Shown piece by piece: positions 4,297-21,348 of a DNA stretch of 40,095 bases. Origin of the DNA: Salinivenus iranica (GTDB lineage Bacteria > Bacteroidota > Rhodothermia > Rhodothermales > Salinibacteraceae); the NCBI GenBank assembly GCA_002894665.1, contig NCRB01000020.1:1-40095 (forward strand). Direction: 5' to 3'. The position numbers were made by a program, and so were the translations under genes. A model generated the notes under the pieces. The model was not told the origin of the DNA, did not search any database, and was given only the letters and a program-made list of their open reading frames with translations. Positions within the stretch are counted from its first letter, which is position 1. Each line of letters opens with the position of its first letter.

Positions 4297-4310
4297 CTTG
4301 CTCGGGTGGG
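4278..4310 (+). other. Hairpin in the leader of the BREX operon
   Basis: Perfect 7-bp arms CCCACCC and GGGTGGG enclose a 19-base loop, 48 bases before the brxA start. No T run follows, so a classical terminator is unlikely. It could end the lipoprotein transcript or act in the BREX leader; neither is shown. Confidence 0.4.
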
Positions 4311-4357
4311 TCTGGTTTGTTGGGGACGCCCACGAGTTCCCCGTCAGTTGTGCTGCC

Positions 4358-5158
4358 ATGATTCGACTTCTCTCGCAGACGGTGAATGCCCTGCCCGAAG
4401 CGTTCGGCTTCCGGGCGGGAGAGAAGGGAGTGCATAACACCCGGACGATGATGCTGGAAGACCTGGAGACGCTCCTCGACGAGCTTCCCCCAGAGACGTC
4501 GAAGAAAGAGTACCAGGCCGCCATTGTCGAGGAGAACATCCTGGCGAAAAACACGGCCTCCACGCGCCGTTACAACGCGCAACGACTCGCGGAGCTGTAC
4601 GGGCTCGACCCCGAAATTCCCCTCTTCCGCATCTTTCGGGCCCTTTGGGACCGGGACGAAGGGCGTCCCCTTCTGGCCCTGCTGTTGGTGCTCGCGCGGG
4701 ACCCGATGCTCCGGATGACGGCGGAGCCAATCCTGGACCTGGAGACTGGAGAGCGGTTCGACAAAACAAAACTCCAGGCAGTCCTTCGGGCGGAAACCGG
4801 GGATCGATTTAGCGAAACCAGCATCAAAAAGATCTCCCGCATGACGGGCTCGTCCTGGACACAGGGCGGGCTTCTGGAGGGGCGGCAGAAAAAGACGCGG
4901 GTCCATCCCCAGTGCACACCGACCAATACGGCCTACGCGCTTATCCTGGGGCATCTGTGTGGCGTGCGCGGCTCGCTTCTCTTCAATACCTTTTGGACGC
5001 GCGTGCTCGACGCGCCCGAACACGAGCTCCAGGACCATGCGAAATCGGCGTCCCGGCGGGGAATGCTCACGTACCGCAATGCGGGGGGCATCATTGAAGT
5101 GGACATTTCTCCCATCCTCCTCCCACACGAACAAGACCTCCTTCGTGAGCAAAGTTGA
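4358..5158 (+). CDS. brxA: BREX protein BrxA (DUF1819 family)
   Basis: First gene of the BREX locus. BrxA is a small helical protein required by type 1 systems; DNA binding has been described for the family. The 266-residue sequence shows the family pattern I recognise: GVHNTRTMMLEDL near residues 24-36, EENILAKNTASTRR near 58-71, PLLALLLVLARDPMLR near 107-122, SSWTQGGLLEG near 168, and a closing GGIIEVDISPILL. I choose ATG 4358 because it keeps the conserved N-terminal segment and clears the leader hairpin; the frame is open from 4298 and an internal start at 4448 is also possible. It overlaps brxB by 14 bases, so the two are probably translationally coupled. Confidence 0.82.
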   Translation: MIRLLSQTVNALPEAFGFRAGEKGVHNTRTMMLEDLETLLDELPPETSKKEYQAAIVEENILAKNTASTRRYNAQRLAELYGLDPEIPLFRIFRALWDRDEGRPLLALLLVLARDPMLRMTAEPILDLETGERFDKTKLQAVLRAETGDRFSETSIKKISRMTGSSWTQGGLLEGRQKKTRVHPQCTPTNTAYALILGHLCGVRGSLLFNTFWTRVLDAPEHELQDHAKSASRRGMLTYRNAGGIIEVDISPILLPHEQDLLREQS

Positions 5159-5678
5159 CGACCTCCTCGACCGGTACGAGCAGAACGTTAACCGTCCGTG
5201 GAAGAAGCGGCTGGACGGGGCGCAGAAGGTCTGGTTTGTCGTGTATCCGCCAAAGTATGAGCGGGCACTCCGAGCGCGGATCGAAGAGTTTCGGATGGCG
5301 ACGACGCAAGCCGGGCACGGATGGACCGAATCTGATTTGACCCGCGCGTTCCCGGAGTGGATGGCGGACCACGAGTACCGGGAAGGGTATTTCGAGGACC
5401 CCTCCGGTTTCGACTTTGTGAAGCAGGATTTCCTGGAGGATCTCGCGCAGGACATCCGGGCGGATCTTCAAGAGGAAGACGAGGAAACCGTCGTGGCCCT
5501 CACGGGCATCGGAACGCTCTTCGGATTTGTCTCCATCTCCGACCTGATCGAGGAGGTCCACTCCGAAATTCGTGGACGCCTCGTCGTCTTCTTTCCGGGT
5601 CGCCACGAGGCGAACACGTACCGCTTCCTCGACGCCCGGGACGGCTGGGACTATCTTGCCCTGCCGATCAAAGCATAG
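5145..5678 (+). CDS. brxB: BREX protein BrxB (DUF1788 family)
   Basis: BrxB is a conserved small component of BREX type 1, part of the core set with BrxA and BrxC; its molecular role is not settled. This 177-residue version carries the expected features: KVWFVVYPPKYERAL near the N terminus, then TESDLTRAFPEWM, and a C-terminal GRLVVFFPGRHEANTYRFLD, which is the strongest signature. I start at GTG 5145, which overlaps the brxA stop. Longer in-frame starts inside brxA encode an Arg/Ser-rich shadow of brxA rather than family sequence. brxC follows after 48 bases. Confidence 0.85.
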   Translation: MSKVDDLLDRYEQNVNRPWKKRLDGAQKVWFVVYPPKYERALRARIEEFRMATTQAGHGWTESDLTRAFPEWMADHEYREGYFEDPSGFDFVKQDFLEDLAQDIRADLQEEDEETVVALTGIGTLFGFVSISDLIEEVHSEIRGRLVVFFPGRHEANTYRFLDARDGWDYLALPIKA

Positions 5679-5726
5679 AAGCCCTCTCTTCTCTTTCTGG
5701 CTTCTCTCACTGAATCTGGCTGTGTG

Positions 5727-8700
5727 ATGCAAAACCGCGTAATTTACGAGCAGGACCCCACGGAATTTCAACTCCTGAACAACGGGGTCGCGAAGGTTCG
5801 GGACGCACAAACCAAGGAAGAGCTCGAAACGCTCCGCTTTGAGCTGAAGACCTTTATTTGTGAGGGACAGTACGAAGAGGGACTGATCCGGCTACTTCAG
5901 AGCTACCTCGACAACCTCGGGCAACCGGAACAGCCCGCCGCCTGGATCAGCGGGTTCTTCGGGAGCGGCAAGTCGCACCTCGTCAAGATGCTTCGCTACC
6001 TGTGGGTCGACTACGAATTTCCAGACGGAGCGACGGCGCGGGGACTGGCAAACCTTTCGACCCGTGTCGAGGACCTGCTGAAGGAGCTCTCCACCCAGGC
6101 CCGGCGCCTGAACGGGCTCCATGCGGTCTCGGGGTCGCTGGGCTCCAGCTCAAAGGGGAGCGTCCCCCTCGCCCTGCTCAGCCTCATTTTTAAGTCGGCG
6201 GACCTGCCGGAGCAGTATTCGCTCGCTCAGTTTGTGATGTGGCTCAAGGAGGAAGGACACTATGAGGAGCTTCGTCGGCGGGTGGAAGACGAAGGGCGGG
6301 ATTGGGACCGGGAGCTCCGCAATCTCATGGTGTCGTCGTCCATTTCGAAGCACCTGCTCGACCTGGAGCCGTCGCTGGCCGACGACGTGGCGGGCGTGCG
6401 GGACCTGCTCCGGGAAAGCTACCCGAAGGTCGACGACGTCTCGCTCGACCAGATGGTGGATGCCATCTACGACGCGCTGGCCGACGACGGCGAGCTCCCC
6501 TGCACGCTCGTCGCCCTCGACGAAATCCAGCAGTTCATTGGGGACGACTCCGAGAAGACGTACGACATTCAGGAGGTCACGCAGGCCTGCTGTTCGGAAT
6601 TCGGCGGGAAGCTGCTGTTTGTGGGGACGGGACAGACGGCGCTCACGGGCACGCCGGAGCTGGAGAAGCTGACCGGGCGCTACCGCATCCAGATTCAGCT
6701 CTCGGACGCGGATGTGCAGGCGGTCACGCGGAAAACGGTGCTCAAAAAGAAGCCGTCGAAGCGGCCCGACGTCGAAGACACCTTGACGCGGAACAGCGGG
6801 GAGATCTCCCGCCACCTCCGAGGTACCGACTTTGAATCGAAGCCGGAGGACGAGGACCACCTCGTGGATGACTATCCATTGCTCCCCACCCGGCGGCGGT
6901 TTTGGGAGCGAGTTCTGCGGGCCGTCGACGAGGCGGGCACCAAGAGCCAGCTCCGCACGCAGCTCAAGCTGGTGGACGAGGCGGTGAAGCAGACGGCGGA
7001 GGAGCCGATTGGCTCCGTCGTGGCGGGGGACTTCATCTACGAAGATCTCCGCTCCGACCTGCTCCAGAGCGGCGTTCTCGCCAACGACATCGACACCCGA
7101 ATCGAGCAGGTGCGTGCCGAGGAAGACGATGAGCTCGGGGCGCGGCTCTGCGCGCTGGCCTTTCTCATCGGAAAGCTGCCCCGCGAGGAGGGCGTGGATA
7201 CGGGCCTCCGGGCTACGCCGGAGACGTTCGCGGATCTGCTGGTGAAGGACCTAAAGGCGGGCAGTGGCACGCTCCGAGACCGCGTCGAAGCCCGGCTCGA
7301 CCAGCTGGTGAAGAAGGGCATCCTCATGCAGGTGGAGGGGGAGTACCGGATGCAGACGCAGGAGAGCCAGCAGTGGATGAATGAGTTTCGCGAGCGATAC
7401 CGGAGCATCACGAAGAAGCGGGAGCAGCTGGCGACGCACCGGAGCGACGAGCTGCGCAAGGCCGCGAGTGACGCCCTTGGCGACGTCCAGAAGATCAAGC
7501 ACGGCGACAGCAATGAGCGGCGGACCCTCGAGCCGCACTTCTCGAAGGAGGAGCCCACGCCCAGCGGCGAGGCGATCCCGGTCTGGGTTCGCAACGAGTG
7601 GCGGGACACGGCGTCGTCCGTCGAGGCCGACGCCCGACAGGCGGGGACGGACAGCCCCATGATTTATGTGTTCCTGCCGAAGCGGAGCGCCGATCAGCTC
7701 GATGAGGCGATCGCTACCGAGCGGGCTGGGAAGGCGACCCTCGAAGTGAAAGGGCGAACGACCACGCAGGAGGGGGAGGAAGCCCGGCAGGCGATGATTA
7801 CGCGGCGCGAGCAGGCGACGCAGCGTAAGGAGGCCGCCCTCGAAGAGATTCTGGAGGGCGCCCGGGTCTTTCTAGCCGGGGGACAAGAATACGTGGCCGA
7901 TACCGTGGCGGAAGGCGTCGAGAATGCCGCGCTAAACGCCCTCGAACGGCTCTATCCCAAGTTCGAAACCGCCGACGATAGGCGGTGGAACCGGGTGTAC
8001 CGGCAGGCGCGGAATGGGGACAAGGACGCCCTGGAGGAAGTGGACTTTCGGGGCAACCCCGAGGACCATCCCGTCTGCGAAGCGGTGCTGGAGGCAGTGA
8101 GCGCTACGACCAACGGCAAGGAGGTCCGGCGGCAGTTCACAACGGCCCCTTACGGATGGCCCCAGGATGCGGTGGATGCGGCCCTTGTGTTGCTTACGCT
8201 CACGAATCACGTGCGGGCCAGGCGCAATGGGGGGGCGGTGGACGCTTCCGACCTCACACAGCGAAACCTGAGTACCGCTCGTTTCCGGGCCGAGACCGTC
8301 ACGCTGAGCCGCAAGCAGATTCTGGAGCTCCGAGGACTACTGCAGCAGTTTGCCGACGACGTCACGGGCAACGAGCAGGAAAAAGTGCCGGAGTTTCTGG
8401 AGCGGGTCCGGACCCTCGCCCATCGAATCAGCGGGCCGCCGCCGCTTCCGGCCCGCCCGGACCTCGACTACGTAGACGAGGTCGCACGGCACTCCGGAAA
8501 CGAGCAACTCGCGAAGCTCCACGAGTATAAGGAACGCTTCCTAAAGGAGACTGGGGAGTGGCAGTCGATGGGCAATCGCAAGCCGCAGCGGGAGGCCGAG
8601 TGGTCACAGCTCCAGACGGCCCTCCGCCGGGCAGAAGACCTCGACGGGGTAGAGGAAATCCGGGAGGATGCGAATGCGATCAAGCAGCAGCGCTCGCTCC

Positions 8701-9161
8701 TGGAGCCCACCGATCCCGTACAGCCGCTCCTCAACTCGGCCACCGACCGGCTCCGGGAGGAGCTTCGTTCGCTGTACGACGAATATGAGGCCGCCTTCGA
8801 GGAGCAGATGGAGGCGCTCCAGGCGGCGGAGCCGTGGCAGAAAATCGATGACGAGACCCGGCAATCGATCCTCCGGCGGCACAACCTCGACGGCATTCCG
8901 GAGATTGAGGTAGGCACCACGGAGGCGCTCCTGGACACGCTTGATGACACCCCGCTCGGCGGCTGGCGCACCCGCAAGGATGCCCTTTCCCAGCGGTTCG
9001 ATGACGCCCTCTCCGACGCCGTGCGGGAACTGGAACCGGACACGACGCGCATCAATCTGGACTCTCAGGTTCTGAGGTCAGAGGACGACGTGGAGGAGTG
9101 GCTCGACGAATCCCGCGAAACGCTCCTCGACCACCTGGAGGACGGTCCCGTGCAGGTGTAA
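5727..9161 (+). CDS. brxC: BREX ATPase BrxC
   Basis: BrxC is the large P-loop ATPase of BREX, related to AAA+/STAND-like ATPases and essential for defence and, in studied systems, for methylation. The 1144-residue protein has a Walker A motif GFFGSGKS at residues 76-83, a Walker B segment CTLVALDEIQQFIGDD about 180 residues later, and a sensor-like FVGTGQTAL motif. The C-terminal half is a long acidic helical region with coiled-coil character. The length fits the family (about 1100-1250). ATG 5727 is preferred over the in-frame GTG three bases upstream. The gene is intact and GC-rich throughout, unlike pglX. Confidence 0.93.
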   Translation: MQNRVIYEQDPTEFQLLNNGVAKVRDAQTKEELETLRFELKTFICEGQYEEGLIRLLQSYLDNLGQPEQPAAWISGFFGSGKSHLVKMLRYLWVDYEFPDGATARGLANLSTRVEDLLKELSTQARRLNGLHAVSGSLGSSSKGSVPLALLSLIFKSADLPEQYSLAQFVMWLKEEGHYEELRRRVEDEGRDWDRELRNLMVSSSISKHLLDLEPSLADDVAGVRDLLRESYPKVDDVSLDQMVDAIYDALADDGELPCTLVALDEIQQFIGDDSEKTYDIQEVTQACCSEFGGKLLFVGTGQTALTGTPELEKLTGRYRIQIQLSDADVQAVTRKTVLKKKPSKRPDVEDTLTRNSGEISRHLRGTDFESKPEDEDHLVDDYPLLPTRRRFWERVLRAVDEAGTKSQLRTQLKLVDEAVKQTAEEPIGSVVAGDFIYEDLRSDLLQSGVLANDIDTRIEQVRAEEDDELGARLCALAFLIGKLPREEGVDTGLRATPETFADLLVKDLKAGSGTLRDRVEARLDQLVKKGILMQVEGEYRMQTQESQQWMNEFRERYRSITKKREQLATHRSDELRKAASDALGDVQKIKHGDSNERRTLEPHFSKEEPTPSGEAIPVWVRNEWRDTASSVEADARQAGTDSPMIYVFLPKRSADQLDEAIATERAGKATLEVKGRTTTQEGEEARQAMITRREQATQRKEAALEEILEGARVFLAGGQEYVADTVAEGVENAALNALERLYPKFETADDRRWNRVYRQARNGDKDALEEVDFRGNPEDHPVCEAVLEAVSATTNGKEVRRQFTTAPYGWPQDAVDAALVLLTLTNHVRARRNGGAVDASDLTQRNLSTARFRAETVTLSRKQILELRGLLQQFADDVTGNEQEKVPEFLERVRTLAHRISGPPPLPARPDLDYVDEVARHSGNEQLAKLHEYKERFLKETGEWQSMGNRKPQREAEWSQLQTALRRAEDLDGVEEIREDANAIKQQRSLLEPTDPVQPLLNSATDRLREELRSLYDEYEAAFEEQMEALQAAEPWQKIDDETRQSILRRHNLDGIPEIEVGTTEALLDTLDDTPLGGWRTRKDALSQRFDDALSDAVRELEPDTTRINLDSQVLRSEDDVEEWLDESRETLLDHLEDGPVQV

Positions 9162-9231: not shown

Positions 9232-9241
9232 TTGTATACAA
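9232..9241. promoter_or_regulatory. Palindromic operator candidate for the MazF module
   Basis: TTGTATACAA is a perfect 10-bp palindrome 40 bases before the antitoxin start, in a locally AT-rich patch, and is followed by a second ATATAC motif near 9256. Ribbon-helix-helix antitoxins bind such short palindromes to repress their own operon, so this is a plausible autoregulatory site. Confidence 0.4.
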
Positions 9242-9280
9242 TCAGCACACACACGATATACAGATTTGCCCAATGGCCCC

Positions 9281-9550: not shown

Positions 9551-9917
9551 GTCCGTTCCTGAATCGGCGTCGCCAGACCCGCGGCGCGCGGAGCTATGGT
9601 GGGTGAACTTTTCCCCGACGCGGGGCCGCGAACAACGCGGCGACCGGCCTGCAGTCATTCTTTCGGACACCCGATTCAACGAGGGACCGGCCGGACTGAT
9701 TGTCTCCGTTCCGTTGACCACGACCCACCGTCCCGGCATTCCCACCCACGTGGAGGTGACCCCGGAGCAGTCGGACCTCGACCATCGCTCGTTCATCATG
9801 TGCGAGCAACTTCGCGCGATTTCGAAAGATCGACTTCGAAGCCGGATCGGTCGGATCTACGATCAAGCGGTCGTGGACATTGTGGAGGACCGGGTCCGAC
9901 TGCTTCTCGGCCTCTGA
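9543..9917 (+). CDS. mazF: MazF/PemK-family endoribonuclease toxin
   Basis: MazF toxins cleave mRNA at short sequence motifs and halt growth when the antitoxin is lost. This 124-residue protein has the family signatures in order: AELWWVNFSPTRGREQRGDR near residues 17-36, PAVILSD, the VSVPLTTT strand, and SFIMCEQLRAISKDRL near 82-97. The length is typical and the family residues are present, so it is probably active. It sits inside the BREX operon between brxC and pglX. It may stabilise the island or act as a second abortive layer during infection; the sequence cannot decide between these. Confidence 0.9.
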   Translation: MAESVPESASPDPRRAELWWVNFSPTRGREQRGDRPAVILSDTRFNEGPAGLIVSVPLTTTHRPGIPTHVEVTPEQSDLDHRSFIMCEQLRAISKDRLRSRIGRIYDQAVVDIVEDRVRLLLGL

Positions 9918-10040
9918 CGTGCACGGGTTGTCTTCTCTCGCCAGTCGTTTCTGAAGACGGAGCCGCCCAGCACGAGTAGATTGCGAGACCAAGCGGTCCC
10001 AGGCGCTACCCTGAGACGGCGGCACGGGCCTGGAGATGTC

Positions 10041-10244
10041 CAGGGCAATCGCATGAACGCAAACCGTCGCTCCAAGCTCGACTTGGAGCCCATCTGACGA
10101 CTGTAGAAGCCTCCTCCACGAATCGGATGGCTCCCAAATCAAGTGTGGGACGACAAACGTGAGCGCTTTTTTGAGTCTCCGCTGCCAGAAAATAGATTTC
10201 TAAGCATCAATTTGAAGCAGTAGGCTATTGATGCGATTGCCCTG
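10041..10244. mobile_element. 204-bp MITE-like element with 10-bp target duplication
   Basis: The ends are 15-bp inverted repeats: CAGGGCAATCGCATG on the left, and on the right GATGCGATTGCCCTG, which matches the left end at 14 of 15 positions when reversed. It is flanked exactly by the direct repeat TGGAGATGTC at 10031-10040 and 10245-10254, a clear target-site duplication. There is no coding capacity. The same ends occur on the element at 10956-11199. Termini starting CAGGGC with 10-11 bp duplications remind me of ISAs1-type elements, but I do not assign a family. Confidence 0.8.
10065..10154. repeat. Palindrome-ended repeat, copy 1
   Basis: The left end CGTCGCTCCAAGCTCGACTT and the right end AAATCAAGTGTGGGACGAC are imperfect inverted repeats. 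The interior (CATCTGACGA...GAAGC...CGGATGG) matches a second copy at 21618-21732, and similarity continues about 15 bases past the right end. This copy lies inside the 204-bp element; the second copy has no such surround. The left end alone can fold into a small hairpin (CTCCAAG/CTTGGAG). Confidence 0.6.
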
Positions 10245-10269
10245 TGGAGATGTCGCACTGCTTTGAATC

Positions 10270-10291
10270 AAACGTACATTTTCGTACGTTT
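10270..10291. promoter_or_regulatory. Palindromic operator candidate before the 60-aa gene
   Basis: AAACGTAC and GTACGTTT form a perfect 8-bp inverted repeat around a 6-base centre, ending 37 bases before the 60-aa gene. The spacing and symmetry fit an operator for a dimeric regulator, possibly the 60-aa protein itself. Confidence 0.45.
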
Positions 10292-10328
10292 CCAAACCTC
10301 AGTTCTTCTCATAAACCGGTGGTCTCCC

Positions 10329-10511
10329 ATGAAAGCACCGACCTCGGAACGTGCGCGACGCATTTTTTCGGACGACGAGGCTGCCCAGAAGGTGATTAAC
10401 GCCGCACGGAAAGGGAAGTCCACCACGGTTGAGGTGGACGGCAAGCGGTATCGCGTGCAGCGGGTTTCAGAAACCCGTGCGGAAGACCCGGCCGAGAATG
10501 GACGCGAATAA
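10329..10511 (+). CDS. Unknown 60-aa charged protein
   Basis: I do not recognise this protein. It is 60 residues, strongly charged, with a probable helix (SDDEAAQKVINAARKGK, residues 16-32) followed by a strand pair around STTVEVDGKRYRVQRV. The strand pattern and small size recall antitoxin-like or Phd-like proteins, but this is only a resemblance. ATG 10329 lies 37 bases after a perfect palindrome, and the next gene begins 12 bases downstream, so the two look like an operon. A longer in-frame start at 10263 would run through the palindrome and adds no convincing sequence. Confidence 0.6.
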   Translation: MKAPTSERARRIFSDDEAAQKVINAARKGKSTTVEVDGKRYRVQRVSETRAEDPAENGRE

Positions 10512-10955
10512 TCCCTCGGGTGAATGAACCTTGCATTCCCGGCACTCTTTGTTCTTCTCCTTCTCCTGCCGGGCATTCTTCTCAGCTACTCCTACCGACG
10601 AGGCTTTTTTCGCCGAAGTCCGATCACCCTTGGCCCGATCCGGGATGAGATTGGCCGGGGCATCGTCCTGGCAGTCTTCGTTCACGTTGGAGCCCTCGGG
10701 CTCTCTTGGTGGTGGACGGAATGGGCCCCGAAGACCGACGTGATTCTGGCTGTTTTTGCTGATACGGGAGCGGTCTCGGCGAAGGAAGCTGCCAAGGAGT
10801 TTAAGGCGGGACTCCAGTCCCTGGTCGTGACCATTGGGGCCGCTCTCGTGATCGGAGGGGCCTTACACGGGATCGTGCGGTTCTGCCAACTCGATCTGCG
10901 GTGGGAACGACTGCGGTTCAACAACGAGTGGCACGACCTCTTCTCCGGGGAGGTG

Positions 10956-11199
10956 CAGGGCGATTGCATGTTAAATAGGTCCACAGAAGTACAGTCATTC
11001 TGAGCGACTGACGAACGAAGAGAGGAAGGAGTCGAAGCATCTCTTTGAATTCGGCGAAAGCAGTGCTGTGGGGCGTTTCCGCCTGTCTTCGAAGAGATTC
11101 CTCGACTCGGACTTCCCGACGGCGGTCGGGACGCCTCGCTCGGAATGACGATATGAGCAAACGTGTTTTCTCCGTTGTACTTGAGATGCGATTGCCCTG
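10956..11199. mobile_element. 244-bp MITE-like element with 11-bp target duplication
   Basis: The ends are CAGGGCGATTGCATG and GATGCGATTGCCCTG, inverted repeats matching at 12 of 15 positions and shared with the element at 10041-10244. It is flanked by the direct repeat CCGGGGAGGTG at 10945-10955 and 11200-11210. It inserted into the membrane-protein gene. It contains a long inverted repeat (10994-11149) and no transposase, so it must have been moved by an enzyme encoded elsewhere. Confidence 0.85.
10994..11149. repeat. Long imperfect inverted repeat inside the 244-bp element
   Basis: The outer ends GTCATTCTGAGCGA and TCGCTCGGAATGAC are inverted copies differing at one of 14 positions. Both arms then carry a TCGA(A/G)GNATCTCTT(T/C)GAA motif, giving arms of roughly 55-60 bases. 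Repeats beginning GTCATTCYGAGCGA are, as I recall, dispersed in many bacterial genomes. No target duplication is seen at these inner ends, so it moved as part of the larger element or is an old nested insertion. Confidence 0.6.
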
Positions 11200-11592
11200 C
11201 CGGGGAGGTGTGGCTCTACGAGAAGGACACCGACCAGACGGTGGACTGGGTGTTTGCATCCGTCGTCGTCGATCAGGGAGAACCGTCCATCCTCTACTGG
11301 GGCCGGCTGGTCGATTACGTGTTTGATCGGGCCGGAGCCCTCGACAAGATCATTCTCACGCAGGCCCAGCGCCGGTTTTTGAGCCCGGAGTCGGATCGAG
11401 ATCTGTATCCTCCAGAGGGAGACGAGAACTCAGAGGAGACGGACACGGACTCTGAGGAAGCAGCTCTGCCCCCGGCGAGCGACCGCTACTATCCCATTCG
11501 GGGGGAGTACTTCGTCATCGAGTACGAGAACGTACAGACCCTCAACGTCGAGTACTTCGAAGTGCTCGATGAGGAGTAGACCCGGCGCGGCA

Positions 11593-11730
11593 ACGCTAAT
11601 AAAAAATGAGCCCCGAACTTTTCATTAGATGACTGGCGCCCCATCTAACAAAACGCCTTTTCATTAGCGCCGTCCTACGCCGGGAGCACAGTTCTCCGCC
11701 CCCGCAACACGCAATACGCACTACGCAATA
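11593..11730. repeat. Small inverted and tandem repeats before pglX
   Basis: The 157-base gap before pglX has no gene. CGCTAATAAAA at 11594-11604 is inverted near TTTTCATTAGCG at 11659-11670; CTTTTCATTAG also occurs as a direct repeat at 11618-11628 and 11657-11667. Next to the pglX start, TACGCAA/TACGCAC-type heptamers occur in tandem (about 11709-11730). These may be footprints of earlier insertions; no promoter can be assigned with confidence. Confidence 0.4.
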
Positions 11731-11736
11731 CCCCCC

Positions 11737-14700
11737 ATGCAATCCCTCGACACCGACCTCCGCAGCACCCTCGAATCCACCGTAGAAGACGCCCGCGAGG
11801 TGGCCGAAACCGGCGCGAACGCCGCGTTGAATCAACTGGGCGTGGGCGACCGCGAGAAGCCGGATTATCTCGACGAGGAGCAGGCCGAACTGCGCCGTCG
11901 ACTCCGGGCCCGAGGCCGACAGTTGGGCGACGAACTCAAAAACAGCGGCGAGCAGGAGACGTGGCACCTCGCCCGCGAGATCGCCTACGAGCACTGGCAC
12001 CGGATGCTCTTCGCCCGCTTCCTGGCGGAGAACGACCTGCTGGTGCATCCCGAGCTGGACGTGGCCGTGACGCTGGAGGACTGCGAGGCGCTCGCCGACG
12101 AGGAGGGGGCGCGGGACGGCTTTGAGTTGGCGGCGCGCTTTGCCACCGGCATGCTGCCGCAGATCTTCCGGGAAGACGACCCGGTGCTCGACCTGGAGAT
12201 GGCCCCGGAGCATCGAAGCAAGCTCAAGCGCATGGTGCAGGACCTGCCGGAGGCCGTCTTTGAGGCCGACGACAGCCTCGGGTGGGTCTACCAGTTCTGG
12301 CAGTCGAAGCGGAAGGACGAGGTCAACGCCTCCGGCGACAAGATTGGGGCCGACGAGCTGCCCGCCGTCACGCAGCTCTTCACCGAGCACTACATGGTGC
12401 AGTTCCTCCTCGACAATACGCTCGGGGCGTGGTGGACGGCCCGTCACCCAGACGCCGACATCGATCTCGACTTCGAGTACCTGCGCTTCGTAAAGGATGA
12501 GGAGACCGGCGAGGAAGTCCCGGCGGCGGGGACGTTTGACGGATGGCCGGACACGGCGGCGGAGCTGACGGTGATGGATCCGTGCATGGGCTCGGGCCAC
12601 TTCCTGGTGGCGGCCCTGCCGATGCTGGCGCGCATGCGGATACACGAGGAGGGCCTCTCGGCGGAGGCGGCGGTGGACCGCGTGATTGCGGAAAACCTGC
12701 ACGGGCTGGAGATCGACGAGCGCTGCACGCAGATCGCGGCGTTTGCCCTGGCGATGGCTGCGTGGACGTTCAATGGAGCGTCGGGCTACCGCGAGTTGCC
12801 GGAAATGAATCTTGCTTGTAGCGGCCTCGCGCCCCAGGGGGACCTGGAGGACTGGGTGATGCTGGCGGGCGAGGACGAGCGATTACAAAATAGTATGCGT
12901 CAGATTTATGATACATTTGAGAATGCCCCGACATTGGGAAGTCTCATAGCCCCCGATGAGTCCGACAATCTTGTACACACAGCCACCTCGAAGGAGGTGA
13001 GACCGCTACTGCAAGAGGCTTTGGCCAATGAACAGAGTGCGGAGGTTATTGAGCGAGGCGTTAAGGCATTTGGTATTGCGGAGGCAGCAGATATGCTCAC
13101 ATCCACCTATTGTCTGGCAGCTACCAATGTGCCGTATCTCCATAAGAGTTACTACTCGAATGTGTTGAAGAACTATGTGTCCCAAAATCACAGCTTGTCT
13201 GACGAAAACATATCAACTGTATTTTTGGAAAGAATATTACAGATGACTGAGGCGGGGGGTTCGACCGCCTTGGTAATGCCTCAAAATTTCTTATTCCTCG
13301 GTAGGTATTCGAAAATAAGGGCCAATTTGCTAAACAATTACGAGATAAACTCAGTAGTATGGTTGGGGCCTAACTCCTTCGAGACAATATCTGGAGAAGT
13401 AGTTAATGCATCGAACATTATATTGTCTAATAGGAAAAGGAACAAGAAAATAACGGCAATAGATGCGCAAAAAAAAGATAGCATAGAAGAAAAGTTGAAT
13501 TATATGAAAAAAGGGAGGTTGAAAAAGATTGAACAGGAAGAGATGAGTAACAACGTAGATTCGAGGATAATACCTGACGTAACGGGAGACAGGGAACTGC
13601 TAAAAAAGTACGCAAGTAGCCTAGGGGGGATAACGTCCGGGGATTCTCCAAGATTTAGAAAAAAGTTCTGGGAGATAGATTTGGAGATTGGCACATGGGT
13701 AAGGCAGCAGGGGCCACCAGAAAGCACCCAAGAGTTTTCGGGCCGAAAAAACGTATTATTGTGGGAAGAGGGGGAGAAAGAGATAAAAAAATATGCCGAA
13801 AAAGGAAAGGCCACTATAGCCGGAGAGGAGGCTTGGGGGAAAGATGGAGTATGTGTAAGGTACACGTCAAGTTTACCAGTAACTATCTATAAGGGTGAGA
13901 TATACGAAAATACATCAGCGGTGATCGTTCCTTACAAGGAAAAAAACTTGGAAGCTATATGGTGTTTTTGTGAGTCAGAAAAGTTCGAGGAAGAGGTCAG
14001 AAAGATAGATAAAAAATGGGGAGTAACATGCAATACATTGGCCAAAATTCCTTTCGATCTCAGTTATTGGGGTCAGGTCGCAGAGAAAAAGTATCCGGAT
14101 GGTCTCCCCAATCCTTACAGCGACGATCCGACACAGTGGATCTTCCACGGTCACCCGAAGCCGAGTGAGCGCCCCCTCCAGGTGGCCGTTGCCCGCCTCC
14201 TCGGCTACCGGTGGCCTGCTGAGGAGGATGAAGACATGGAGCTCTCCGACGAGGCCCGCGAGTGGATCGAGCGATGCGAGGACCTCGACGAGCACGTGGA
14301 CGACGACGGCATCGTCTGCATTCCCGCCGTCTCCGGCGAGCGCGCCGCCGCCGACCGCATCCACGACCTCTTGGCGGCGGCCTACGGCGACGACTGGGGC
14401 GAAGACGTCCTCCAGGACCTCCTCGACGAGTGGGGCTACCGTAGCGGCGGCTTGGAGGGCTGGCTCGACGGCGCCACCGCCCGGCAGAAGGGCAAGTTCG
14501 CCCAGCAGCACAACAAGCTCTTCGGGCACCGGCCCTTCATCTGGCACGTGAGCGACGAGCACGCAGACGGCTTTAGCGCGCTCGTCAACTACCACCAGCT
14601 CGACCGCGCCAACTTAGAGCGGCTCACCTACACCTACCTCGGCGACTGGATCAAGCAGCAGGAGGCGGCGATGGAGCGGGGCGACGACGGCGCGGAGGCC

Positions 14701-15081
14701 CGCCTGCTGGCCGCCCAGGACCTCCAGGAGGAACTGAAAAAGATCATCGAGGGCGAGCCCCCCTACGACATCTTCGTCCGCTGGAAGGAGGCCCACGAGC
14801 AGCCCATCGGCTGGGACCCGGACCTCAACGACGGCGTCCTCCTCAATATCAAGCCCTTCATCGAGGCGGGCATCCTCCGCGACGAGCCCAACGTCCGCTA
14901 CACGAAGGACCGGGGCAAGAACCCCGAGGGCGCCCCGTGGGGCCCCAAGCGCTACAACCGCTACGAGGACGTGCCCGAGGAATACAAGCTGACGGACGAA
15001 GACGGGGAGGTCATCGAGCACCTGACGAACGAGGTGAAGCGCCGGGTTCGGGCAGAACGTGCCTCTCAAGATAGCCAGTAG
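11737..15081 (+). CDS. pglX: BREX adenine-specific DNA methyltransferase PglX
   Basis: PglX (BrxX) methylates adenine in a short non-palindromic site so that host DNA is spared by BREX. The protein has 1114 residues. The SAM-binding motif I DPCMGSGHF starts at residue 281, and the catalytic motif IV is NVPY at 464-467 rather than the usual NPPY. A probable target-recognition region follows, then an acidic helical C terminus. DNA from about 12885 to 14090 (residues about 383-785) is strikingly AT-rich, with AAA, ATA and AAT codons that its flanks avoid. The frame stays open across both junctions, so this is a mosaic functional gene rather than a broken one. Its terminator follows at 15185. Confidence 0.93.
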   Translation: MQSLDTDLRSTLESTVEDAREVAETGANAALNQLGVGDREKPDYLDEEQAELRRRLRARGRQLGDELKNSGEQETWHLAREIAYEHWHRMLFARFLAENDLLVHPELDVAVTLEDCEALADEEGARDGFELAARFATGMLPQIFREDDPVLDLEMAPEHRSKLKRMVQDLPEAVFEADDSLGWVYQFWQSKRKDEVNASGDKIGADELPAVTQLFTEHYMVQFLLDNTLGAWWTARHPDADIDLDFEYLRFVKDEETGEEVPAAGTFDGWPDTAAELTVMDPCMGSGHFLVAALPMLARMRIHEEGLSAEAAVDRVIAENLHGLEIDERCTQIAAFALAMAAWTFNGASGYRELPEMNLACSGLAPQGDLEDWVMLAGEDERLQNSMRQIYDTFENAPTLGSLIAPDESDNLVHTATSKEVRPLLQEALANEQSAEVIERGVKAFGIAEAADMLTSTYCLAATNVPYLHKSYYSNVLKNYVSQNHSLSDENISTVFLERILQMTEAGGSTALVMPQNFLFLGRYSKIRANLLNNYEINSVVWLGPNSFETISGEVVNASNIILSNRKRNKKITAIDAQKKDSIEEKLNYMKKGRLKKIEQEEMSNNVDSRIIPDVTGDRELLKKYASSLGGITSGDSPRFRKKFWEIDLEIGTWVRQQGPPESTQEFSGRKNVLLWEEGEKEIKKYAEKGKATIAGEEAWGKDGVCVRYTSSLPVTIYKGEIYENTSAVIVPYKEKNLEAIWCFCESEKFEEEVRKIDKKWGVTCNTLAKIPFDLSYWGQVAEKKYPDGLPNPYSDDPTQWIFHGHPKPSERPLQVAVARLLGYRWPAEEDEDMELSDEAREWIERCEDLDEHVDDDGIVCIPAVSGERAAADRIHDLLAAAYGDDWGEDVLQDLLDEWGYRSGGLEGWLDGATARQKGKFAQQHNKLFGHRPFIWHVSDEHADGFSALVNYHQLDRANLERLTYTYLGDWIKQQEAAMERGDDGAEARLLAAQDLQEELKKIIEGEPPYDIFVRWKEAHEQPIGWDPDLNDGVLLNIKPFIEAGILRDEPNVRYTKDRGKNPEGAPWGPKRYNRYEDVPEEYKLTDEDGEVIEHLTNEVKRRVRAERASQDSQ

Positions 15082-15184
15082 AAGTTAATATTCGGTGAAT
15101 GGAGACTGGCAGGGTGAACGATTCCCATTTGGGAAGTTCAATATATTGATATTCATCCCCAGATGGGCGATATGCTCACTGGCC

Positions 15185-15217
15185 CCCGCCGGGTTACGAT
15201 CCGGCGGGTTTTTTTTT
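15185..15217 (+). terminator. Rho-independent terminator after pglX
   Basis: A perfect 8-bp stem (CCCGCCGG/CCGGCGGG) with an 8-base loop is followed at once by nine T residues. It lies about 100 bases after the pglX stop and 37 before the NYN gene, so the downstream genes, including pglZ and brxL, probably need a second promoter. Confidence 0.92.
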
Positions 15218-15253
15218 GCTCAAATCTGATTTTCCCCGTTTCGGAGTTCCTAC

Positions 15254-15898
15254 ATGTCTTCTACACGAGTAAGCTTCCTCGTTGACGGATTCAATCTGTA
15301 CCACTCCGTCAAAAAGGCCGAGCGCGACCTGGGCGGATCGACGACGAGGTGGCTCAACCTGCGAAGCCTGTTCACCTCCTATATGCACCTGTTCGGGCGA
15401 GAGGCCGACCTGGAGGAGATCTACTATTTCTCCGCTCTCGCAAAGCACCTGCTATCGAAGAAGCCCGACGTCACGAAGCGGCATAAAAAGTACATTCGGT
15501 GTCTGGAAGACGTCGGGGTGAACGTGGAACTGAATCGGTTCAAAAAGAAGACCCTCCAATGCTACAACTGCGGCAACCGATTCACGAAGCATGAAGAGAA
15601 GGAGACCGACGTCGCCATTGCTGTTCGGCTGATCGAGCTACTGATGGAAGACCAATGCGACATCGCTGTTCTCGTCTCAGGAGACACGGATCTTGCTCCG
15701 GCCTTTCGAACTGCACAACGGCTTGCCCCCTCGAAGGCCGTTACCTTTGCGTTTCCGTATGAGCGAAAGAACAATGAGCTGGCCCAAATGGCCTCGAATC
15801 CGTTCCAGATGAAGAAGGGACAATACGTGAAGCATCAATTCAACGACCCGTACGAACTGAGCGACGGCACGGAGGTCCACATGCCCTCCTCCTGGTAA
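15254..15898 (+). CDS. NYN-domain (PIN-like) nuclease
   Basis: NYN domains are PIN-fold, metal-dependent RNases. The 214-residue protein shows the acidic centre expected of the fold: VDGFNLYH (Asp11, Asn14), KETDVAIAV (Asp119), and SGDTDLAPAF (Asp144 and Asp146). A CYNC pair just before the second motif could bind metal but is only half of a zinc knuckle set. The protein resembles LabA/DUF88-type members. It lies between pglX and pglZ, after the pglX terminator, so it is separately expressed or begins the second BREX transcript. I infer an accessory defence or regulatory RNase; no substrate can be named. Confidence 0.85.
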   Translation: MSSTRVSFLVDGFNLYHSVKKAERDLGGSTTRWLNLRSLFTSYMHLFGREADLEEIYYFSALAKHLLSKKPDVTKRHKKYIRCLEDVGVNVELNRFKKKTLQCYNCGNRFTKHEEKETDVAIAVRLIELLMEDQCDIAVLVSGDTDLAPAFRTAQRLAPSKAVTFAFPYERKNNELAQMASNPFQMKKGQYVKHQFNDPYELSDGTEVHMPSSW

Positions 15899-15979
15899 GG
15901 CCGGTCGAGGCGGGCTGTGTTTTTCGGGGCTGTTTGTTTTCTTGCCCCCGATCCGTCGTTCGACAGCTTCGCTCTCCCC

Positions 15980-16200
15980 ATGCCCGACGTCATCACCGCC
16001 GCCACCACGCCCCTCGACGCTCTGGAGCGGGCCTTCGACCGGGCGGCCACGTACAACGAGCGCTCCCGGGTGGCCCCCTCCTCTGGCCCGTCGAAAAAGA
16101 CGAGTAGACGCGCCTGCTCCCCCGCCTCCGCGAGCGGGTTCCACAGCTGCTTACGCTACGGGACTACGACCCTGAAATAAAGTCCGGCCCAGCCATCTGG
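15980..16200 (+). pseudogene. Decayed duplicate of the pglZ 5' end
   Basis: From its ATG this stretch matches the first about 228 bases of the intact pglZ (16959-17186), nearly identical for the first 95 bases (residues PDVITAATTPLDALERAF and on). A 7-base loss near 16077 shifts the frame and the copy drifts until similarity ends at ATCTGG (16200). Similarity begins exactly at the start codon. The copy and the intact gene bracket the PIN cassette, which suggests the cassette arrived by an event that duplicated this end of pglZ, after which the upstream copy decayed. Confidence 0.85.
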
Positions 16201-16312
16201 TACAATGTGGGAGCCGCCTCTCGTTCGTTGAGCGATCAGAGACTCCAGCGACATCGTTCCGGGAGCACGGGGAAACGATTCGATTGTCTTTTTCGAGGTC
16301 CGTTCCGTTCTC

Positions 16313-16786
16313 ATGCCCATTCGAACCTACGCCGACACGTCCGTATACGGAGGGCTTCACGACCCCGCGTTTTCGGACGCCAGCTACACGTTCTTCGACC
16401 AGGTACGAGCGGGGCGGTTCGACCTGGTCACCTCGGCCGTCGTCGCCGAAGAGCTCGCGGAGGCGCCCGACGCCGTCCGGGACGATTTCGAAGCCATCCT
16501 TCCGCATACCGAAATCGTCGAGGTCACGGCCGAAATCCTTGATCTGCAGGCGGCGGACCTGGACGCGGGGATTCTCACCCCCCAGTGGGAAGACGACGCC
16601 CTCCACATGGCTCTTGCGACCGTCGGGAACTGTGAGCTGGTCGTCAGCTGGAATTTCACCCACATCGTGCACTTTCAGAAGATTCCCCAGTACAACGCCG
16701 TAAACCAGTTGCACGGATACGACACGCTCGCCATCCATTCCCCGCCGGAGGTGATTTCTGATGACGACAACGAAGAAGGAATTTGA
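16313..16786 (+). CDS. PIN-domain ribonuclease, probable type II toxin
   Basis: A 157-residue PIN-fold protein of VapC-like type. Visible acidic residues are Asp8 in TYADTSVYGG, Glu46/Glu47 in VVAEELAE, Asp94/Asp95 in WEDDALHMALA, and the closing SWNFTHIVHF motif with Asn114, a pattern common in a PIN group paired with a small downstream partner. Such proteins cut tRNA or other RNA. It overlaps its partner by 26 bases. The pair lies between a dead and a live copy of the pglZ start, so it was most likely inserted into an existing BREX operon. The active-site residues appear complete. Confidence 0.85.
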   Translation: MPIRTYADTSVYGGLHDPAFSDASYTFFDQVRAGRFDLVTSAVVAEELAEAPDAVRDDFEAILPHTEIVEVTAEILDLQAADLDAGILTPQWEDDALHMALATVGNCELVVSWNFTHIVHFQKIPQYNAVNQLHGYDTLAIHSPPEVISDDDNEEGI

Positions 16787-16943
16787 CTGCATCGCGATGA
16801 AGCGCCAAGGCGCACAGGCCGTGCGGGCCCACTTGAAAGAGAAGACCCGGGACGAGCGGATCGCGTATTGGCACGAGCGGACACGAGCGCTTCGGGAGCG
16901 GCAAGCAGACGTGTCGCCCGACTCTTCCTTCGACGACGAGTAG
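16761..16943 (+). CDS. Small partner of the PIN protein, probable antitoxin
   Basis: A 60-residue, charged, mainly helical protein: EFDCIAMKRQGAQAV (residues 7-21), then KEKTRDERIAYWHERTRALRER. Short proteins with an MKRQGA-like helix and a YW(H/R)ERT segment commonly follow PIN toxins of this type, as I recall. It overlaps the toxin gene, and pglZ begins 15 bases after its stop, so pglZ may be read from the cassette promoter. Toxin-before-antitoxin order is less usual for VapC-type pairs. Confidence 0.7.
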   Translation: MTTTKKEFDCIAMKRQGAQAVRAHLKEKTRDERIAYWHERTRALRERQADVSPDSSFDDE

Positions 16944-16958
16944 CCCATTTCATCCTCT

Positions 16959-19289
16959 ATGTCCGACGTCATCACCGCCGCCACCACGCCCCTCGATGCC
17001 CTGGAACGGGCCTTCGACCGGGCGGCCACGTACAACGAGCGCTCTCGGGTGGCTCCCGCCGCCATCCTCTGGCCGGACGAAAAGGAAGAGTGGACGCGCC
17101 TGCTCCCCCGCCTCCGCGAGCGGTTTCCGCAGCTCCTTACGCTGGGGGAGTACGACCCCGAGACGAAGACCGGCCCGGCCATCTGGCTGAAGTGCATGAT
17201 CGCCCGCACGCTGGAGGCGGCGGACGGGCCGGAGGAAGAGATTCCCATCGTGTACCTGCCCGGGGTGTCCCGCCGCGACATTCGGGCTGTGGAGCGGTGT
17301 CCTGAGGAGATTAAGCCGCTTGCCGAGCTTCAGTACCGGGGCGTGCTCTGGAACCAGACGAACGGGCGAGACTGGACGGTGCGGGCCTTTCTGATGAGCG
17401 AGAACGGCGGCCTGGGCCTCGACGTGGCGGGGGACGAGGAGACCCTGGCGGCCATGCAGCGCGCGCTCCCCGAGCTGGCAGACACGCCGATCGACCGCCT
17501 GCGCGGACAGCGCCTCGACGCAAGCCGGTTTCGCACCCTCATCACTGACGACCCGGTTCGGGACCTTCTCACGTGGCTGAGTCGTCCGGAAGAGACCCAG
17601 GGAGACTGGAGCCCGGAGCGGTGGACGACCTTCTGCGAGATCTGCGAGGACGAGTACGGTTTCGATCCCGAAAAGGACGGCCCGCTTCACGCCGCCAAGC
17701 TGCTTGGGTTCAAGGAAGGGGCATGGGCCCCCGTCTGGCAGCGATTTATCGAGGCGCCGGACCGCTATCCCGGCATCCCAGACAAACTCCGGCAGGCCCG
17801 GCCCCCGCAGTCGGGCGACCTCTTTGCGAAGGAGCCGATGTGGCCCCAGGACAACGAGGTGATGGAGGAGGAGCTGCGGGAGGAGCTCCTGAAGATCGGC
17901 GACCTGCGCCCACCGGAGGCCGCAGAGAAGATTGACGAACTCGAAGCAGCCCACAGCGAACGGCGGTCCTGGGTCTGGTCGGAGCTTGGAGAGGCCCCGC
18001 TCGCCAATGCGCTGAGGCCCCTTCGCACGCTCGCCGAGGCGGTGCAGTCGCCCCTCGGCGGAGCCACCCCCGAGGCCGTCGCTGAACACTACCGGGACGG
18101 CGGGTGGAAGGCAGATCGGGCGATGCTCGACGCCATGCAGGGTGTGCGGGAGCCCAAGGATGTGAAGGCGGTCCACTCGGCCATCGGGGCACTTTATCAG
18201 GGCTGGCTCGAAAACGGGACAGAGGCCTTACAGACCGCGTTCGCCAATAAGGGCGTGCCGCGCCCCCCTGAACCGCCCGATCCGGCGGCGGGGGAGGTGC
18301 TTCTATTCGTCGATGCGCTCCGGTACGACGTTGGGCAGACGTTGGCGGAGGTCCTCCGCTTCGTCGACCTGGAGGTGGAGATGGATTCGCATTGGGCGGC
18401 CCTTCCGTCCGTGACGCCGACGTCGAAGCCTGCCGTCTCCCCGATTGCGGAGGAGATCAGTCAGGAGAGCGACCCGGACGAGTTTCAGCCCGAACTGGAT
18501 GGAGATCGCCTCACCATCCGGCGGTTTCGCAATCGCATGGAGGAGCGAGGCCATCAGATCCTGGACACGGAAGAGACTGGGGATCCCGCCGGGACCGCCT
18601 GGAGCGAGATCGGGACCATTGACACGTACGGGCACAACGAAGAGTGGAAGCTCGCCCGCCGAGTCGACGAACTCATGACCGAGATTACGGCCCGGGTGCG
18701 TCAGCTTCTGGGGGCCGGGTGGGACACCGTGCGGATCGTCACGGACCACGGCTGGCTCCTCGTTCCCGGTGAGCTTCCGAAGGAGGACCTGCCGCACTAT
18801 CTTGCACAGACCCGCTGGGGACGCTGCGCGACCCTGAATGAAGGAGCCGAAACCAGCCACATGACCGTCGGGTGGCACTGGAATCCAGACGTGCGCATTG
18901 CGATGGCGCCCGACATGCGGGTCCACAAGCGAGGGATCGGCTATGCCCATGGCGGGATCAGCGTGCAGGAGTGCCTGGTGCCGCGCCTGCGTGTTCAATC
19001 CTCGGGAGAGGAGGGACCGAGCGCCCACATTTCCTCTCTGAAGTGGCTTCGGCTCCGGTGTCGCATTCAAGTAGAGAACCCAACCTCTGGGCTGGAGGTC
19101 GACCTTCGGACCCGGGCCAACGATCCCGAAACCTCCGTGGCCTCTCGCCCCAAACAGGTGAAGGAAGATGGGACGGCCTCCATTCTTGTCCCGTCGCCCG
19201 AGAAGGAAGGATCCGAGATCACCGCCGTTCTCCTGGAGGACGGCGACGTTATTCACACCCACTCGACCACCGTGGGAGGCCATGAGTGA
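16959..19289 (+). CDS. pglZ: BREX alkaline-phosphatase-superfamily protein PglZ
   Basis: PglZ is the hallmark BREX protein with an alkaline-phosphatase-type domain; it is required for defence and acts with PglX. The 776-residue protein has an N-terminal helical half and a C-terminal phosphatase-like half: LLFVDALRYD near residues 448-457, with the expected metal-ligand Asp; PSVTPTSKPAVSP, which supplies the nucleophile-region Thr/Ser; TDHGW around Asp596; and a closing AHGGISVQECLVP. It resembles what is annotated as type B PglZ of BREX-1, from memory. It starts at ATG 16959, 15 bases after the PIN partner, and overlaps brxL by 8 bases (ATGAGTGA). Confidence 0.92.
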   Translation: MSDVITAATTPLDALERAFDRAATYNERSRVAPAAILWPDEKEEWTRLLPRLRERFPQLLTLGEYDPETKTGPAIWLKCMIARTLEAADGPEEEIPIVYLPGVSRRDIRAVERCPEEIKPLAELQYRGVLWNQTNGRDWTVRAFLMSENGGLGLDVAGDEETLAAMQRALPELADTPIDRLRGQRLDASRFRTLITDDPVRDLLTWLSRPEETQGDWSPERWTTFCEICEDEYGFDPEKDGPLHAAKLLGFKEGAWAPVWQRFIEAPDRYPGIPDKLRQARPPQSGDLFAKEPMWPQDNEVMEEELREELLKIGDLRPPEAAEKIDELEAAHSERRSWVWSELGEAPLANALRPLRTLAEAVQSPLGGATPEAVAEHYRDGGWKADRAMLDAMQGVREPKDVKAVHSAIGALYQGWLENGTEALQTAFANKGVPRPPEPPDPAAGEVLLFVDALRYDVGQTLAEVLRFVDLEVEMDSHWAALPSVTPTSKPAVSPIAEEISQESDPDEFQPELDGDRLTIRRFRNRMEERGHQILDTEETGDPAGTAWSEIGTIDTYGHNEEWKLARRVDELMTEITARVRQLLGAGWDTVRIVTDHGWLLVPGELPKEDLPHYLAQTRWGRCATLNEGAETSHMTVGWHWNPDVRIAMAPDMRVHKRGIGYAHGGISVQECLVPRLRVQSSGEEGPSAHISSLKWLRLRCRIQVENPTSGLEVDLRTRANDPETSVASRPKQVKEDGTASILVPSPEKEGSEITAVLLEDGDVIHTHSTTVGGHE

Positions 19290-21348
19290 GTACGACGTAA
19301 TGGAACTGGATGCGGTTGATCGAACGGCTGCCGATGCGTTCGAGGGATTTATCGTGCGGAAGGACCTCGTGCGCCGCTTTCAGAATCAGTACCCGGTCCC
19401 CACGTACGTTGTCGAGTTTCTGCTGGGCCGCTACTGCGCGAGCGTCGACGAGGAGGAGATCCAGGAGGGCCTCGACATCGTTCAGCGTCAGCTCTCGGAC
19501 CGGACCGTGACCCCGGGAGAGGAGGAGCTTTTCAAGTCGAAGGCGCGGGAGAAGGGTAGTGTGCAGCTCATTGACCTCATTCGTGCCCGTCTCGATCCCC
19601 GGGAGGACGCCTACGTCGCCGAGCTTCCGAGCCTCCAGCTTCGCCGCGCCCGGATCGACGCGAACGCCGTGAAGAACCACGAGCGGATGCTCACGGGCGG
19701 CTTCTACGCGGAGGTCGAGCTCGAATACGACCCGATCATCGCAGAGGAACTCGGCGGAAATCCCTTCGGCGTCCGCAATCTCCGAGAGATTCAGCTTTCC
19801 ACCTCGAACGTCCTCGATACCCTCTCGGAGGGACGCCGCACCTTCACGACGGACGAGTGGACGTCGTTTCTCCTGCGCAGCATCGGCCTGGAGCCGGAGG
19901 CCTTGAGCGATCGGGAGCGCGACGTGTACCTGCTGCGGATGGTCCCCTTCGTTGAGCGCAACTACAACGCCATCGAGTTGGGGCCACGGGGCACGGGGAA
20001 GAGCCACCTCTACCAGCAGGTGTCTCCGTACGCCCATCTTGTTTCGGGGGGGAAGACGACCGTGGCCCGGATGTTCGTCAACCTCAACACCGGCCAGCGC
20101 GGGCTGGTCTGCCAGTACGACGTGGTCTGCTTCGACGAGGTGGCGGGCATCTCCTTCAACAAGAAGGATGGGATCAACATCATGAAGGGGTACATGGAGT
20201 CCGGCGAGTTTAGTCGGGGGCAGGAGAGCATCCGGGCGGACGGCGGAATCGTCATGGTCGGCAATTTCGACGTCGACGTGCAGCACCAGCAGCGCGTAGG
20301 CCACCTCTTCAGTCCGCTGCCGGAGGAACTTCGGAACGACACCGCCTTCATGGATCGGATCCACGCCTATTTCCCCGGCTGGGATGCCCCGAAGCTCAAC
20401 AAATCTCACTTCACCGATCACTTCGGGCTCGTGGGCGACTTCATGTCGGAGTGTTGGTCACAGCTTCGCCGCCAGAGTCGCACCTCGGAGTTGATGGGCC
20501 GCGTGCAGCTCGGTGGTGCCCTGAGTGGGCGCGACACGAAGGCCGTACAGAAGACCGTGAGCGGCCTCCTGAAGCTCCTCTACCCCGACTCGAACATGGA
20601 AGTCCCCGACGAGGATCTGGAGTGGGCCGTGGAGATCGCACTGGAGAGCCGTCGCCGCGTGAAGGAACAGCAGAAGCGAATCGGCTCGGCGGAGTTTCGC
20701 AACACGAACTTTAGCTACCGGATGGGGACCGACGGCATCGAGCAGTTTGTCGCGACCCCCGAGCTTCAGAGTGACGATAAGATCGGGGGCGATCCGCTTC
20801 CGCCGGGGCAGGTGTGGACCGTGAGTCCGGGAGGGGAGGACGAGCATGCAGGACTCTGCCGTATCGAGGTCAAGAGCGGCCCCGGTTCCGGAGAGAAAGT
20901 GCTCAACCGCCCCACGCCGCAAGCCTTTGCCGAGAGTGTCCACTACGCCGAACAGAATCTCTATTCCCAGTCCGACGCGCTGGTGGGCAGAGATCGAGAG
21001 CCGAGGGAGCACTCCTTCACCGTGCAGCTTCGCACGTTCGATGCGGCAAAGAGCGGAGCCGACATCGGCGTTGCCGTCCTTCTCGCCCTGAGTAGCAGCC
21101 TCATGGAGCAGAGCCTAAAGGGCGGATTGGTTGTGGTCGGGGCCCTCAATCTTGGTGGATCCATCGATCCCGTCCATAGCGCCGTGGACCTTACCGAGCT
21201 TGCCGCCGAGCACGGGGCGAAGCGGGTGCTGATCCCCGTCTCGGCCCGGGACCAGCTGTTCAAGCTGCCGGACGATGTCGCGACCTCGATCAACCTTCAG
21301 TACTACTCGGGGATTGAAGATGCCCTGCGAAAGGCTCTTGTGGGGTAA
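19282..21348 (+). CDS. brxL: BREX AAA+/Lon-like protein BrxL
   Basis: BrxL is an AAA+ ATPase with a Lon-protease-like C-terminal domain; it is the effector-side component that distinguishes type 1 BREX and forms DNA-associated rings in studied systems. This 688-residue protein has Walker A GPRGTGKSH from residue 234, Walker B VVCFDEVAG (Asp285, Glu286), and a Lon-like domain from about residue 575 to the end. In the position of the Lon serine motif (GPSAG) it reads SGADIG, and the expected catalytic lysine position reads SID, so the Ser-Lys dyad seems absent. ATG 19282 overlaps the pglZ stop. It is the last BREX gene. Confidence 0.92.
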   Translation: MSEYDVMELDAVDRTAADAFEGFIVRKDLVRRFQNQYPVPTYVVEFLLGRYCASVDEEEIQEGLDIVQRQLSDRTVTPGEEELFKSKAREKGSVQLIDLIRARLDPREDAYVAELPSLQLRRARIDANAVKNHERMLTGGFYAEVELEYDPIIAEELGGNPFGVRNLREIQLSTSNVLDTLSEGRRTFTTDEWTSFLLRSIGLEPEALSDRERDVYLLRMVPFVERNYNAIELGPRGTGKSHLYQQVSPYAHLVSGGKTTVARMFVNLNTGQRGLVCQYDVVCFDEVAGISFNKKDGINIMKGYMESGEFSRGQESIRADGGIVMVGNFDVDVQHQQRVGHLFSPLPEELRNDTAFMDRIHAYFPGWDAPKLNKSHFTDHFGLVGDFMSECWSQLRRQSRTSELMGRVQLGGALSGRDTKAVQKTVSGLLKLLYPDSNMEVPDEDLEWAVEIALESRRRVKEQQKRIGSAEFRNTNFSYRMGTDGIEQFVATPELQSDDKIGGDPLPPGQVWTVSPGGEDEHAGLCRIEVKSGPGSGEKVLNRPTPQAFAESVHYAEQNLYSQSDALVGRDREPREHSFTVQLRTFDAAKSGADIGVAVLLALSSSLMEQSLKGGLVVVGALNLGGSIDPVHSAVDLTELAAEHGAKRVLIPVSARDQLFKLPDDVATSINLQYYSGIEDALRKALVG

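Follow-up and report, generated by a model that had tools for sequence, protein, structure and literature searches.

The analyzed window, the whole stretch of 40,095 nucleotides, carries a full BREX type 1 gene set (brxA, brxB, brxC, pglX, pglZ and brxL), with all six genes identified by PADLOC or NCBIfam models within positions 4298-21348 (Table 1). Judged by this gene content, the locus is a complete type 1 BREX operon. The true start of brxB probably lies further in, because the PADLOC match begins only at residue 64. Inside the operon, one gene resembling ribbon-helix-helix antitoxins and one resembling PemK/MazF toxins are located between brxC and pglX (9098-9917), and a NYN-domain nuclease-like gene (PADLOC HEC-09) between pglX and pglZ (15254-15898). 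Two copies of the first ~220 bp of pglZ (15980-16958 and 16959-17186) lie 979 bp from each other, with identities of 93% and 86%; the frame of the first copy is soon lost, and a reading frame sitting between the two copies was judged by eye, without a Pfam hit, to be PIN-type toxin-like. This arrangement suggests that an insertion at the pglZ start doubled the 5' end of the gene.

Table 1. Genes of the BREX operon and features of pglX in the window.
Feature	Position	Strand	Details and basis
brxA	4298..5158	+	PADLOC BrxA E=3.5e-88
brxB	4959..5678	+	PADLOC BrxB E=1.4e-68
brxC	5724..9161	+	PADLOC BrxC E=0; NCBIfam NF033441
pglX (brxX)	11737..15081	+	1114 aa, BREX type 1 adenine methyltransferase and specificity protein; PADLOC PglX E=0, residues 1-1108
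High-GC 5' flank of pglX: N-terminal domain and SAM-binding half of methyltransferase domain	11737..12881	+	GC 0.67, GC3 0.88; follows the GC3 of the host in relatives (control slope 1.03)
Motif I DPCMGSG (SAM binding), in conserved 5' flank	12577..12597	+	residues 281-287
AT-rich block, putative exchangeable specificity cassette	12882..14094	+	residues 382-786; maximum-likelihood breakpoints; Halomonas identity breaks match
Motif IV TNVPY (catalytic), in block	13123..13137	+	residues 463-467; aligned to NPPY 508-511 of E. coli BrxX
Counterpart of the E. coli BrxX loop 587-601	13363..13407	+	residues 543-557; alignment; function from PMC11842806
Target-recognition domain (TRD)	13555..14064	+	residues about 607-776 (about 605-776 by alignment), equivalent to E. 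coli BrxX 651-837; alignment (approximate in low-identity columns); PMC11842806; AF2 model
High-GC 3' flank of pglX: C-terminal domain, opening with conserved PDGLPNPYSDDPTQWIFHGHP stretch	14095..15081	+	GC3 0.92; columns 787-826 near-invariant
pglZ, BREX-1 type B	16959..19289	+	NCBIfam NF033450 E=5e-271
brxL	19168..21348	+	TIGR02653, score over cut-off

An AT-rich block within pglX

The composition of pglX changes sharply at two points, with GC contents of 0.67, 0.42 and 0.67 for the 5' flank, block and 3' flank, respectively, and third-position GC (GC3) of 0.88, 0.47 and 0.92. Maximum-likelihood GC breakpoints fall at 12882 on the left (2-lnL range 12871-12887, i.e., located to 17 bp) and at 14094/14095 on the right (2-lnL range 14068-14155), and a three-segment GC3 fit gains 125 lnL units, whereas none of 30 codon shuffles gained more than 10.6. 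Splitting the block at a further breakpoint adds at best 3.2 lnL units, and the block therefore reads as a single piece. Nothing else in the 40 kb window equals it; among other 1.2-kb stretches the lowest GC is 0.545, and the sampled intergenic DNA (GC 0.48-0.66) is richer in GC than the block.

The first-pass annotation had placed the edges at 12885 and 14090, which hold and prove sharper than it described. Its observations that the frame stays open across the block and that the block contains codons avoided by the flanks are likewise borne out, with a reading frame open through 1114 codons and block versus flank counts of 19 versus 1 for Ile ATA, 21 versus 2 for Lys AAA, 14 versus 2 for Val GTA, and 14 versus 0 for Arg AGA and AGG together. 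At family-conserved residues (those conserved in at least 80% of relatives), codons have a GC3 of 0.45 within the block and 0.94 outside it, and variable codons within the block show the same GC3 of 0.45 as the conserved codons there.

Functions encoded by the block

An AlphaFold (AF2) model of the window's PglX (mean pLDDT 86) aligns with E. coli BrxX (9EWZ) over 961 residues (Z 39.6, rmsd 6.7) and has the BrxX fold, with an N-terminal helical bundle, a gamma-class methyltransferase, a target-recognition domain and a C-terminal part. The first-pass annotation had assigned motif IV and the probable target-recognition part to the block and had called for structural mapping of residues 383-785; both the TNVPY motif and the TRD indeed lie inside the block, and the model fits the BrxX fold with the TRD so placed. 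Within motif IV, N464 and Y467 are invariant across a 52-row alignment and align with the contacting residues N508 and Y511 of E. coli BrxX. The equivalents of E. coli T243 and L245, two residues lining the pocket for the flipped adenine, are located in the 5' flank. Motif IV of the subfamily is mostly NVPY rather than NPPY, the latter occurring in a betaproteobacterial clade and in one other relative (L004); NVPY was considered as a mark of foreign DNA and rejected as such, since it is usual in the PglX subfamily.

In the E. coli enzyme, base 6 of the site is read by loop 587-601, and bases 1-4 are read by TRD residues K681, D684, R751, Q784 and N823 (PMC11842806). By alignment, the equivalents of these TRD residues fall at about query residues 630-762, inside the block, a placement that is only approximate in the low-identity TRD columns. 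These correspondences support the assignment of the block as the specificity-determining part of PglX, which would comprise the second half of the methyltransferase domain together with the TRD. From the base contacts in the E. coli BrxX structures (PMC11842806), we infer that this cassette sets the methylated sequence.

Block exchange and composition among relatives

In Halomonas, pairs of pglX genes are 90-96% identical in their N-terminal parts and 83-96% in their C-terminal parts, with blocks that are 30-36% identical in most pairs. The identity breaks of these pairs, at query residues 364-367 and 785-797, lie close to the window's own composition breaks (382 and 786); for one pair (L021/L049), amino acid identity is 0.96 / 0.33 / 0.96 and changes at query residues 364 and 786. 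The flank tree unites six Halomonadaceae with full support, whereas the block tree rejects them as one group (p-AU 0.0019). Three of them fall instead with Methylonatrum, a planctomycete, and the 34%-GC firmicute Proteocatella, the exact partners being unsure in these quick LG trees with long branches. A shorter exchanged unit, from residues ~546-591 to 757-797, is seen in Accumulibacter-like bacteria, Comamonadaceae, Cloacimonadota and some Halomonas pairs.

Similar breaks are found in E. coli, where all 78 pairs among 13 pglX alleles break within the equivalent region. Identity in these pairs is mostly 0.8-0.99 in the outer parts and drops to 0.25-0.46 in the middle, with left breaks mostly at BrxX residues 514-516, 541, 567-573 or 604-613 and right breaks at 947-962. 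When a plasmid pglX was compared with E. coli, 5 of the 350 matching genomes matched over at least 80% of its length, and nearly all other E. coli genomes among the matches listed matched it in two pieces, at both ends. Two alleles (L135 and L137) are practically identical apart from 534-656, the stretch holding the base-6 loop, and this pair offers a natural test of base-6 specificity. Collectively, the identity breaks point clearly to repeated exchange of the homologous block as a unit in Halomonas and E. coli.

Blocks also differ between the two adjacent pglX genes of Botrimarina hoheduenensis (L002:6447-13468), which show identities of 0.90 / 0.40 / 0.33 / 0.73, their N-terminal parts being 90% identical and their specificity blocks 33-40%, and one BREX operon there possibly marks two sites. 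Accumulibacter-type PglX proteins (L043, L056 and L058) have an additional ~170-180 aa near query residues 252-261. In a relative of the same family (L075, G013:C56), positions 1501-1764 encode only pglX residues 32-107, 71% identical and fused behind another frame, which looks like a broken 5' remnant without the block.

To describe the composition of the block more widely, we surveyed 57 aligned full-length rows, consisting of the window gene and 56 relatives (among which two are identical). Block GC lies below flank GC in every row, with a mean difference of 0.107; the window has the largest difference (0.245), closely followed by the Halomonas genes L049, L064 and L021, and ranks fourth by GC3 difference. 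Block GC3 tracks flank GC3 weakly (slope 0.58; 0.42 for the TRD part), whereas control segments of the same gene track it with slopes of 0.97-1.03. The dip is also present in mid-GC Bacteroidota relatives and absent from two low-GC Firmicutes, and in the E. coli alleles the TRD has a GC of 0.33-0.38 versus 0.52-0.53 in the N part. The AT-rich block is thus a feature of the whole PglX subfamily and not of this strain alone. The first-pass annotation had held that close relatives with the same block and the same composition would speak against replacement; relatives share the bias (57 of 57), but their block sequences differ.

Origin of the block and its counterparts in known systems

We consider it probable that the AT-rich block is a PglX specificity cassette that originated in the pglX gene of an organism with AT-richer DNA. 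The cassette would have arrived whole, through recombination within the conserved coding stretches on either side of it, and the unchanged flanks would retain SAM binding and both ends of the protein. The remainder of the BREX complex would then still fit PglX, and the swapped cassette, carrying the catalytic motif and the base-reader equivalents, should redirect both methylation and defence by BREX to a new site. The steps that we infer are recombination as the route, an AT-rich organism as the donor, and a change of the methylated site. Because a resident fast-evolving region should keep host-like codons at unchanging residues, the low GC3 of the conserved codons together with the sharp edges favors entry as one piece, and these AT-ending codons argue against gradual drift.

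Searches with the full and block proteins against viral contigs, plasmids and 395 genomes of the phylum found no block more than ~40% identical that could be the donor, and no cassette standing on its own. A pglX ortholog is absent from all 12 other genomes in the genus, and therefore the sequence replaced in the window is unseen. Tree conflict was not found for the window's own block; a grouping with the nearest relative, L079, is not rejected (p 0.84), and the L079 block, with which it groups, is AT-rich too. An AT-rich ancestral block common to both and kept since their split nevertheless seems unlikely, because the flanks of the two genes are only 56% identical and differ widely in GC3 (0.88 versus 0.58). 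The earlier proposal that DNA from a low-GC source replaced the specificity-determining half is borne out in part by the exchangeable module in relatives, by its nearly identical boundaries and by the foreign codons; on the other hand, no donor was found, the block is not peculiar to the strain, and its tree position shows no conflict.

The strongest alternative, to which we give a small share of the likelihood, is that the block was not imported and that a specificity domain under diversifying selection became AT-rich in place through AT-biased mutation and weak codon selection. Such drift is consistent with the near universality of the AT bias, which includes mid-GC hosts and E. coli, with a dip that vanishes only in the lowest-GC hosts, and with the grouping of the window's block with that of L079. 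It does not readily account for conserved codons as AT-rich as the variable ones, a left edge located to within 17 bp, or a block GC below that of the sampled intergenic DNA, and the module has clearly been exchanged as a unit in Halomonas and E. coli. An assembly chimera, in which reads from the pglX genes of two organisms were joined, is very unlikely: the genome consists of 133 contigs with an estimated contamination of 1.2%, but a chimera requires two joins between sequences with little in common, both joins are in frame, the resulting 1114-aa protein is intact, contains motif IV and has a confidently modeled fold, and the same architecture recurs in many isolates and complete genomes. Phase variation, with the cassette switched on site from silent copies as in hsdS shufflons, can be almost entirely discounted despite the adjacent Botrimarina pglX genes with different blocks, as no second block was found in the window's own genome even at E<=10, the edges have only short, chance-level repeats rather than long inverted or direct ones, and the scanned neighboring genes include no recombinase.

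While import as one piece remains our preferred reading for the window, exchange among the sampled hosts would on average equalize block and flank GC, whereas the blocks are AT-richer nearly everywhere. This one-way bias could reflect either carriers that are themselves AT-rich or a drift toward AT as the region rapidly diversifies. More speculatively, PglX specificity cassettes may form a cross-phylum pool that is AT-rich in any host, whether through AT-rich carriers or a local process, and may comprise two nested units, the base-6 loop and the TRD reading the first four bases, exchanged separately or together; we regard this wider picture as tentative.

PglX sets the 6-bp site whose methylation lets BREX tell self from phage. 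Were the specificity part a portable cassette, BREX could change this site in one recombination step, resetting which phages are resisted. E. coli BrxX hybrids with only the base-6 loop exchanged lose defence (PMC11842806), and the natural boundaries show which parts need to move together: the base-6 loop travels with the TRD or with a longer stretch around the loop. With natural allele sets like that of the 13 E. coli alleles, base preferences could be assigned to cassettes through methylome comparison.

Among known systems, the closest counterparts are the PglX/BrxX proteins of type 1 BREX from E. coli HS (9EWZ) and Salmonella (8C45), which match the window's model with Z of 35-40 and share its domain order of SAM motif, motif IV, TRD and C-terminal domain. 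The window's protein differs from them in its NVPY motif and shorter C-terminal part, and identity is only ~20%. The TRD has been described as the most variable part of BrxX (PMC11842806), and attention has been drawn to divergence within pglX when E. coli HS is compared with Salmonella (PMC9009780). In the literature searched, which covered few subscription papers, no description was found of the exchange of the PglX module, its AT bias or its two sizes, a silence that is weak evidence of novelty.

Other methyltransferases are already known to exchange cassettes, in one case a low-GC one. The modA type III methyltransferases of Neisseria and Haemophilus likewise have conserved 5' and 3' parts around a variable central recognition domain that horizontal transfer replaces as a block, and in modA12 the GC of this domain is significantly lower than that of its flanks (PMC3311624). 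These genes belong to phase-variable type III restriction-modification systems and were studied in two genera, whereas PglX is a BREX protein found in many phyla and its block includes motif IV. Similarly, recognition domains of the type I and III systems of H. pylori are replaced as blocks (PMC3983042), and those of HsdS undergo domain movement there, recombining as units through conserved flanks and altering the methylated site (PMC3077401, PMC3983042). HsdS, however, is a separate subunit with two recognition domains, whereas PglX is one fused enzyme with a single module.
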